Of a DNA stretch of 64,000 nt, positions 49,463 through 56,525 are shown piece after piece (position 1 is the first letter of the stretch; each line of letters starts with the position of its first letter). Position numbers and translations under genes: made by a program. A model generated the notes under the pieces. The model had not been told where the DNA came from, did no database searches, and saw nothing but the letters and a program-made list of their open reading frames with translations. Source of the stretch: Bacteroides coprosuis DSM 18011 (GTDB taxonomy: Bacteria > Bacteroidota > Bacteroidia > Bacteroidales > Bacteroidaceae); contig CM001167.1 in NCBI GenBank assembly GCA_000212915.1, forward strand, positions 359,780 to 423,779, given 5' to 3'.

Positions 49463-49945
49463 ATGAAACTTGCTTATTTAGCCTTGGGAACCAACCTTGG
49501 AAATAAAAAACTCAATCTAAAAAAAGCGGTTAAAGAAATAGAAAAGCGGATAGGTCATATTAAAAAGCTATCCGCTTTTTACGCTTCTAAACCCTGGGGT
49601 TTTGAGTCAGATAATAATTTTGTAAATGCAGCATTATCTGTTGAAATAAATCTATCTCCAACAGAACTTTTAGAAGAAACTCAAAAAATAGAATTAGACT
49701 TAGGTAGAACGTCAAAGAGTACTGCTAAAGGGTATTCAGATAGGGTAATAGATATTGATATTATCTTTTATGAATCCGAGCAAATTAAAACTAAGGAATT
49801 AGAAATTCCACATCCATATATGCATGAAAGGGACTTTGTTTATATTCCCATAGCAGAAATTGCTCCTGATTACATCCACCCTATATTAGAGGTTAAGATC
49901 AAGGAACTTATAAAAGGGAAACATTTGTTAGATAAGTTAAAATAG
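49463..49945 (+). CDS. folK: 2-amino-4-hydroxy-6-hydroxymethyldihydropteridine diphosphokinase
   Basis: Folate pathway kinase that pyrophosphorylates 6-hydroxymethyl-dihydropterin. 160 residues: ALGTNLGNKKLNLKKAV, YASKPWGFES, FVNAAL, the ATP/Mg motif DRVIDIDIIFY (about 93-103) and IPHPYMHERDFV. It ends the ftsX-folK run. No folP or folB is fused or adjacent; metK, with its own promoter, follows. Confidence 0.95.
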   Translation: MKLAYLALGTNLGNKKLNLKKAVKEIEKRIGHIKKLSAFYASKPWGFESDNNFVNAALSVEINLSPTELLEETQKIELDLGRTSKSTAKGYSDRVIDIDIIFYESEQIKTKELEIPHPYMHERDFVYIPIAEIAPDYIHPILEVKIKELIKGKHLLDKLK

Positions 49946-49978
49946 CTCGTTTATATTCTATTTTTAGCGAAATTAAGC

Positions 49979-49986
49979 TACCTTTG
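49979..49986 (+). promoter_or_regulatory. -7 box for metK
   Basis: TACCTTTG, a perfect TAnnTTTG match, 149 bp before the metK ATG. The long leader it implies contains the predicted riboswitch. Confidence 0.58.
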
Positions 49987-50000
49987 CAATCTAAATAAAC

Positions 50001-50050
50001 ACGTGGAGAGATTTGAGTAGCTTGCAACCACAGAAAAAAAATGCTAAAAC
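50001..50050 (+). promoter_or_regulatory. SAM-II (SAM-alpha) type riboswitch upstream of metK
   Basis: The leader shows the conserved SAM-II elements in order: GTGG (50003-50006), GATTTGA (50010-50016), CTTGCAACCAC (50021-50031), an A-rich linker, and ATGCTAAAA (50041-50049). GTGG can pair with CCAC (50028-50031) as P1, and TAGC (50018-50021) with GCTA (50043-50046), giving the H-type pseudoknot of this class. It should bind SAM and repress its own synthase. P1 is short (4 bp), so this is a sequence-and-fold judgement, not a model score. Confidence 0.72.
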
Positions 50051-50135
50051 AACATTCCTTTCTGATGATGTATAATCATGTACCTACTCTTTTCTATTCA
50101 TCCACAATAATTTATAAATTTTCAAAATAAGTTAT

Positions 50136-51428
50136 ATGGGATACTTATTCACATCCGAATCGGTGTCAGAAGGACACCCCGACAAAGTAGCCGATCAAAT
50201 ATCGGATGCTATACTTGATGAATTATTGGCGTACGACCCAAATTCAAAAGTAGCTTGCGAAACCCTAGTTACTACAGGACAAGTAGTTCTAGCAGGAGAG
50301 GTGAAATCCAAAGCTTACGTAGATCTTCAAGAAATCACTAGAGATGTAATCAAAAAAATTGGTTATACTAAAGGTGAATACATGTTTGAGAGTAACTCTT
50401 GTGGTGTTCTTACAGCTATTCACGAACAAAGTGCAGATATCAACAGAGGTGTTGAAAGAGAAGATCCAATGGAGCAAGGTGCTGGTGACCAAGGTATGAT
50501 GTTTGGTTATGCAACCAACGAAACAGAAAATTACATGCCTCTTTCACTAGATTTATCACACCGAATTTTAGTAGAACTAGCTGCTATTAGAAAAGAAGGA
50601 AAGGTTATGACTTATCTTCGTCCAGACTCAAAAAGTCAAGTTACAATTGAGTATAATGAGGAAAACAAACCTGTCCGTATTGATACAATCGTAGTATCTA
50701 CCCAACACGACGACTTTATCAAACCAGATAATGATTCAGTCGAAGCACAATTAGAGGCAGATAGAAAAATGTTAGATATCATTAAGAATGATGTTATTAC
50801 TATTCTTATGCCAAGAGTTATCAACTCTATCCATCATGAAGATGTATTAAAACTATTCAATGACCATATCATTTACCACGTAAACCCAACAGGGAAGTTC
50901 GTTATTGGCGGACCTCATGGAGATACAGGTCTAACAGGCCGTAAGATTATTGTAGATACTTACGGAGGTAAAGGTGCTCATGGAGGTGGTGCATTTTCGG
51001 GAAAAGATCCTAGCAAAGTAGATAGAAGTGCTGCCTATGCTGCACGTCATATTGCAAAAAACATGGTTGCTGCAGGTGTGGCTGAAGAAATGCTTGTACA
51101 GTTATCTTATGCTATTGGTATTGCAGAGCCTATCAATATTTTTGTAGATACTTATGGTCATGCCAATGTAAACATGACAGATGCAGAGATAGCAGATAAA
51201 ATCAAAGTGTTATTTGATCTACGTCCTAAGGCTATTGAAAACAATCTAAAATTACGCAACCCCATTTACAGTGAAACAGCTGCTTATGGACATATGGGAA
51301 GAGATTCTAAAGTCATAACTAAAGAATTCCATTCTCGTTATCAAGAAAGCAAAACTTTAGTTGTAGAACTATTTACTTGGGAAAAACTAGATTGTGTAGA
51401 TAAGATTAAAGAAGCTTTTAATTTGTAA
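50136..51428 (+). CDS. metK: S-adenosylmethionine synthetase
   Basis: Makes SAM from methionine and ATP. 430 residues, with [17 protein letters not shown] at the N terminus, [12 protein letters not shown] (about 117-128), [20 protein letters not shown] (about 260-279) and [19 protein letters not shown]. The three-domain fold is complete. It is preceded by a SAM-II-like leader and followed by a terminator, so it is probably a single-gene unit under feedback control by SAM. Confidence 0.97.
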
Positions 51429-56454: not shown

Positions 56455-56525
56455 TGTCCGATGGTGTAACGGTAGCACAACAGTTTTTGGTACTGTTTGT
56501 CGGGGTTCGAATCCCTGTCGGACAA
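56455..56525 (+). tRNA. tRNA-Gln (anticodon TTG)
   Basis: A 71-base cloverleaf. The acceptor stem TGTCCGA (56455-56461) pairs with TCGGACA (56518-56524). The D arm contains GGTGTAACGGTAGCAC. The anticodon stem ACAGT/ACTGT holds loop TTTTGGT with anticodon TTG, and the T arm is GGGGTTCGAATCCC-like. CCA is not encoded. The wobble U34 is of the kind modified by MnmEG and MnmD, whose genes are also in this window. Confidence 0.95.

Follow-up and report, generated by a model that had tools for sequence, protein, structure and literature searches.

A SAM-II riboswitch in the metK leader of Bacteroides coprosuis and a downstream strand that co-varies with its loop

Background

In Bacteroides coprosuis DSM 18011 the metK gene is preceded by a leader in which a sequence-only reading had recognized the order of motifs typical of a SAM-II riboswitch. 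The leader is part of a stretch of 64,000 nucleotides, which was analysed as a whole and is called the window below. Two questions arise at this locus: whether the leader indeed carries a member of the SAM-II class, and by what route such an aptamer could act on a gene whose ATG (50136) lies 86 nt behind the end of GCUAAAA, a distance that the earlier reading had given correctly.

SAM-II elements have been reported from related organisms. Occurrences of SAM_alpha in the Bacteroides group, with B. thetaiotaomicron among those listed, are given by Corbino et al. 2005 (PMC1273637), and a form with long loops (RF01726) is tabulated for "Bacteroidetes, marine" by Weinberg et al. 2010 (PMC2864571), who also describe the SAM/SAH and SAM-Chlorobi elements, small RNAs found ahead of metK. 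The P2 helix of SAM-II is made by the loop together with the strand that follows the A-rich linker (PMC1273637). For the SAM-II riboswitch of Sinorhizobium (S.) meliloti metA it was reported that translation starts 74 nt downstream, at AUG2 (PMC9373788). Here and below we draw on parts of these three papers.

Results

The aptamer

A covariance-model search of the window against 4227 Rfam families identified the metK leader as a member of RF01726, the long-loop form of SAM-II (65.3 bits, gathering score 44; E = 2.5e-10), with model positions 1–60 of 60 covered (Table 1). In a search of the whole 2.99-Mb genome, this was the sole RF01726 match returned. The place proposed earlier for the element (50001–50050) was right, the model match being slightly wider on both sides. 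The family that had been named for the check, SAM_alpha (RF00521), turned out to be the wrong one: with it the window's aptamer scores 12.7 bits, below the gathering score of 36, whereas RF01726 passes. The outcome that would have refuted the earlier reading, a lack of any covariance-model hit, thus did not occur. All motifs are present in the SAM-II order, with GATTTGA at 50010–50016, CTTGCAACCAC at 50021–50031, the A-rich linker at 50032–50042 and GCTAAAA at 50043–50049, so that the core of RF01726 (GAUUU, UUGCAA, A-rich linker, GCUAAA) is complete, together with the P1 stem, for which the previously proposed GTGG/CCAC pairing stands. The SAM/SAH and SAM-Chlorobi elements are absent from the window's matches above the gathering score and from the matches at E ≤10 in 49700–50300. 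The product of the downstream gene matches TIGR01034 with 506.8 bits (cut-off 309.4) and is thus the SAM synthetase that it had been taken for.

The covariance model, the gene context and the many relatives together confirm that the metK leader carries an ordinary SAM-II riboswitch, of which SAM binding itself is a prediction. The aptamer is an ordinary member of a kind already in print, as SAM-II of Bacteroides since 2005 (PMC1273637) and as the long-loop form of Bacteroidetes since 2010 (PMC2864571), to judge from the parts of these papers used here. A tRNA gene (56455–56525, + strand) is the window's only other Rfam match above the gathering score.

Table 1. Positions of the features of the metK leader within the window
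Feature	Position	Strand	Basis
TACCTTTG, presumed Bacteroidota-type -7 promoter box (TAnnTTTG)	49979..49986	+	sequence and relatives' leaders
SAM-II aptamer (RF01726, long-loop form)	49997..50057	+	full-length covariance match, 65.3 bits
P1, GTGG with CCAC (GUGG:CCAC)	50003-50006 with 50028-50031	+	4 bp
GAGUAG, aptamer loop, partner of the D element	50015..50020	+	loop class versus downstream complement
A-rich linker and conserved AAUGCUAAAA; likely P2 strand	50032..50049	+	RF01726 alignment; P2 role inferred
U element CAUUCCUUUCUG, can pair with the A-rich linker	50053..50064	+	MFE fold; relatives
D element CUACUC, complementary to loop GAGUAG; proposed anti-aptamer strand	50084..50089	+	loop-type co-variation; MFE fold
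UCCAC, pairs with GUGGA (P1 5' strand) in the whole-leader MFE fold	50101..50105	+	MFE fold
metK, methionine adenosyltransferase (SAM synthetase), regulated gene	50136..51428	+	TIGR01034

Distribution among relatives

Of 399 genomes of the family Bacteroidaceae, 317 have an RF01726 match above the cut-off, as do 195 of 295 genomes of the order and 41 of 296 genomes of the phylum. One of the leaders from this family (L002) is by eye the same as that of Bacteroides caecigallinarum. In one genus of the same family (g6), all six listed genomes, each 99% complete, are without a SAM-II match. From the best matches listed we fetched 218 loci, of which 205 could be parsed and 13 could not; one of the latter (L080) has GGUUGA/UCAACC and would have favoured the co-variation described below. 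The parsed loci yielded 199 unique rows with loops of ≤10 nt, and 198 of these have leaders of ≥40 nt. Since the loci were drawn from the best matches listed, the sample leans to high-scoring aptamers, and collapsing it to family or genus removes relatedness only in part. metK follows the aptamer in 203 of the 205 parsed loci from these best matches (the exceptions are L114 and L215, the latter a misparse). To judge by gene order in a sample biased towards high-scoring matches, the riboswitch is a metK switch.

Promoter and layout of the leader

The gene ahead of the leader, folK, ends at 49945, and 16 nt separate the end of TACCTTTG from the start of P1. We take TAnnTTTG to be the consensus of the Bacteroidota-type -7 box. 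The earlier proposal of such a box at this place is well supported by the relatives, in which TAnnTTTG precedes the aptamer in 175 of 198 leaders (200 shuffles: mean 7.7, maximum 16), its end being separated from GAUUU by a median of 21 nt. The placement of the box just upstream of the aptamer in the relatives suggests that the riboswitch is very probably the first part of the RNA. Leaders as long as that of the window are usual among the relatives, and the caution with which the sequence-only reading had treated the output mechanism was justified. Inspection of the window's leader by eye noted no Shine-Dalgarno sequence; Bacteroidota make little use of such sites.

Register of the P2 pseudoknot

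Two kinds of loop were compared among the relatives, those ending in GA and those ending, as in the window, in GC. For loops ending in GA, the complementarity of the variable bases to the 8 bases that follow GCUAA exceeds that after swapping (3.05 vs 2.48 ± 0.10, 68 groups), as expected of P2. For loops ending in GC, the same test shows no such match (1.97 vs 2.07 ± 0.09, 55 groups). The pairing UAGC:GCUA, proposed before as the pseudoknot, is probably wrong: UAGC occurs in only 7 of the 55 groups with GC-ending loops, while GCUAA is found in 204 of 205 parsed loci, a constancy that is partly by construction, as the parser required GCTAA or GCTNA. Owing to this rarity of UAGC we prefer the register UUGC (50022–50025) with GCUAA (50043–50047) as the likely P2, on the basis of the conserved core and of what we take to be the SAM-II structure. 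Directly ahead of GCUAAA there is almost always the U of an AUG (50041–50043 in the window), AATGCTAA being present in 190 of 205 parsed loci; this AUG is near-constant although the upstream open reading frame (ORF) that it would start is not conserved.

A downstream strand that co-varies with the loop

Behind the aptamer the leaders vary widely among the relatives. In the window, CUACUC (the D element) begins 34 nt behind GCUAAAA and is complementary to the loop. The motif [CU]U[AG]CUC occurs in 33/33 leaders with a GAGUAGC loop, from 6/6 genera, as compared to 7/165 other leaders, and the exact CUACUC in 30/33 vs 3/165. Other loop types are accompanied by their own complements: CAAUC with GAUUGA loops (34/43 vs 32/155 others), CAUCC with GGAUGC (5/5 vs 23/193), CCCAA with UUGGG (7/11 vs 11/187), CAG[UC]C with GGCUG (11/28 vs 15/170), CAGUC with GACUGA (6/15 vs 13/183) and AAUCC with GGAUU (2/3 vs 21/195, p 0.04). 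The complements of GAAUUG loops (2/4 vs 44/194) and of GAGUUG loops (1/3 vs 8/195) are not significantly enriched.

Over all 198 rows, the longest Watson-Crick run between loop and downstream sequence is 5.09; shuffling (200 times) gives 4.14 ± 0.06, and exchanging sites between loop types (200 swaps) gives 4.12 ± 0.06. When the rows were collapsed to 123 groups, each defined by a loop together with its family (outside the window's family) or genus (inside it), the mean was 4.86 vs 4.10 ± 0.08 for swaps, and with the two largest loop classes removed (93 groups) it was still 4.45 vs 4.02 ± 0.09, the top of 200 swaps being 4.31. In the families outside that of the window, the signal lies at bases 13–34 behind GCUAA (4.40 vs 3.56 ± 0.10; without GAUUGA 3.89 vs 3.30 ± 0.11), and the next 22 nt show none (3.00 vs 3.06 ± 0.09). 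Inside the window's family, 30 groups give 4.10 vs 3.56 ± 0.16, a value that the largest of 300 swaps also reached. The source of this signal is the GAGUAGC loop, and none is left in the remaining 24 genus/loop groups of the family (3.77 vs 3.67 ± 0.18); as D is invariant within the GAGUAGC class, what is seen there is conservation rather than compensation.

Two further analyses gave less. A test for each loop type over a 68-nt span reached a median p < 0.05 in only 3 of 39 types, with GAUUGA (43 rows) left without a median by the length filter; row by row, the three species of the window's genus gave p = 0.054 (the window), 0.037 and 0.062. RNAalifold, applied to a MAFFT alignment of 22 relatives, recovered P1 only, CUACUC being misaligned in several rows. 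Our conclusion, that a downstream strand co-varies with the aptamer loop across the relatives, relies on the swap and narrow-window tests and not on the test for each loop type. The D element may be an anti-aptamer strand that competes with SAM binding, as the partner of the loop in the ligand-free RNA, and its co-variation with the loop is our best clue to how the switch might work.

The U element and the folds of the leader

The U element could take up the A-rich linker in a similar manner: in the window, CAGAAA (50031–50036) and AAUG (50040–50043) can pair with CAUU...UUUCUG. Among the relatives, the variable part of the linker matches bases 6–30 behind GCUAA above the level of swaps (3.42 vs 3.06 ± 0.07, 118 groups), with little signal at bases 31–55 (3.09 vs 3.00 ± 0.08). 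The minimum free energy (MFE) fold of 49992–50160 (-27.7 kcal/mol, z -2.17; equalled or surpassed by 6 of 200 shuffles) pairs GUGGA...GAGUAG with CUACUC...UCCAC and nests the hairpin of the A-rich and U strands inside, so that the aptamer loses its P1 5' strand, its loop and its A-rich strand. The UCCAC:GUGGA part of this fold finds no support in the relatives of the window's loop class. A 9-bp AU hairpin (50107–50115 with 50127–50135) extends to the base just ahead of the AUG. If the aptamer is omitted, AUCC (50100–50103) pairs with GGAU (50139–50142) at the metK start and the start codon is enclosed; this fold is weak, with z -0.88 and 38 of 200 shuffles folding as well or better.

Discussion

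A predicted switch and its output

We consider it rather probable that the leader is a SAM-II switch with an anti-aptamer formed by D and U and a likely translational output, through which the level of SAM would feed back on metK. With SAM, the aptamer (P1 and pseudoknot) would form at the 5' end of the metK mRNA. Without SAM, the loop GAGUAG, and probably the 5' strand of the aptamer as well, would pair with CUACUC (and UCCAC), the A-rich strand would pair with the U element, and the resulting hairpin would dismantle the aptamer. The choice between the two forms would reach metK most likely at translation initiation, with SAM turning the gene off. The direction is suggested by the predicted accessibility of the start region, which is slightly higher when the whole leader can fold: over 173 leaders its unpaired fraction is 0.449 for the whole leader, 0.408 with the aptamer omitted (p 2e-7) and 0.400 with the aptamer shuffled. 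The effect is small; in the window's loop class it amounts to 0.406 vs 0.359 (higher in 23 of 33 leaders), and in the window's leader alone it is almost nil (0.203 vs 0.192). On this weak evidence, control of the translation start is the likelier output. The family match, the gene context and, in relatives, the co-variation of the loop with D and of the A-rich strand with the U element are results of the analysis; SAM binding, the assignment of the D and U pairings to the SAM-free state, the choice of the ON state and the translational output are inferences.

Premature termination by Rho, with SAM freeing the C-rich, G-poor D region for Rho to load and the same region sequestered in the absence of SAM, is an unlikely alternative output. 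The last 75–10 nt before metK are indeed richer in C and poorer in G (20.9% and 10.6% in 135 leaders of ≥75 nt) than 19 other upstream regions of the window (14.6% and 12.5%), and 49900–50250 has no intrinsic terminator (GC hairpin and U run) on the + strand; but the case is one of composition, and the C–G excess of the window's own leader (0.12) falls inside the spread of the 19 controls, which reaches 0.14. We know of no Rho-dependent riboswitches in Bacteroidota.

The complementarity of D could also be read as the distal half of the pseudoknot in the SAM-bound form, a partner that might serve the GC-ending loops in place of the one missing just behind GCUAAA. We regard this as quite improbable, because GA-ending loops match both the near partner and D (5.24 vs 4.42 ± 0.10, 98 rows), which suggests alternative pairing of one and the same loop, and because the distance of D behind GCUAA (median 18 nt for GAUUGA, 32 nt for GAGUAGC) varies a good deal for one pseudoknot. 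Control by SAM of a short upstream ORF, running from the aptamer's AUG to the TAA at 50128–50130, 5 nt before metK, and translationally coupled to it, can be dismissed as a general mechanism and is hardly credible here, for although the frame is open in the window and the AUG recurs in 190 of 205 parsed loci, over 185 leaders this frame (mean 20.3 codons) is no more open than frames +1 (23.0) and +2 (19.9), shuffles giving 17.0.

We also considered two roles for the C-rich segment behind D. Its pairing with the leader's own metK start is somewhat stronger than in shuffles (-4.92 vs -4.54 ± 0.11, 174 leaders), an effect confined to leaders with AUGGG (-6.08 vs -5.03 ± 0.16, 97 leaders; others -2.61 vs -2.56). 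CCCA occurs in 28 of 86 AUGGG leaders vs 8 of 69 others, a difference confounded by descent. Co-variation with the start codon is lacking, as in the larger classes leaders with a different start codon matched AUGGGAUAUU more closely than the start they have, and in the 31 leaders of the window's loop class the signal is absent (z -0.7). That this segment sequesters the metK start is at most an unproven option. Pairing of the segment with the P1 5' strand was rejected: it exceeds shuffles (-7.0 vs -6.13 ± 0.14, 167 leaders) but hardly swaps (-6.63 ± 0.22), and the window's class again gives no signal (z -0.1).

Relation to known SAM-II systems

The window's element resembles RF01726 in its full-length model match, its Bacteroidota host and the presence of metK in the window; it differs in that the 60-position model stops at the aptamer, so that most of the U element and all of the D element lie beyond it. 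With the SAM-II riboswitches of alpha-proteobacteria (RF00521, PMC1273637) it shares the plan of P1 and pseudoknot P2 and a promoter few nt ahead. Unlike here, where at least 4 of 198 leaders have them, many of those copies are described as carrying intrinsic terminators (PMC1273637). The S. meliloti metA riboswitch likewise has its start far behind the aptamer, which shows that distance is no obstacle, but it needs a Shine-Dalgarno sequence within the riboswitch and has a terminator between the two AUGs (PMC9373788), and the window's leader has neither a Shine-Dalgarno sequence noted by eye nor a + strand terminator. In the literature searched, covered as titles and main-text passages, we came upon no account of the D and U strands, nor a title that describes a Bacteroidota SAM-II expression platform. 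What is new would thus be the extension of a known sensor by these two strands. Whether the metK leaders of Bacteroidota share a platform beyond the Rfam model seems to us evenly balanced; such a platform would comprise one strand that tracks the loop by compensatory change and one that tracks the linker, an anti-aptamer hairpin that the two form and that opposes SAM binding, and control of a start codon that lies ~50 nt downstream and has no obvious Shine-Dalgarno sequence.

These fast-evolving leaders offer a testable switching partner, and the natural variants of loop and D are ready-made compensatory mutants. That partner could reveal how a SAM-II aptamer acts on a distant gene where Shine-Dalgarno sites are little used, and the Rfam model could be enlarged to take in the U and D strands.

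The count of 4 in 198 leaders with intrinsic terminators comes from a strict scan and is a lower bound, as the scan missed a hairpin with a U run that was seen by eye in L028, L041 and L059. Three loci of one genus of the same family (g15) have a GC hairpin and U run between aptamer and metK, detected by the scan in L038 and L046 and by eye in L028, and part of the family may thus use transcription attenuation with the same aptamer.
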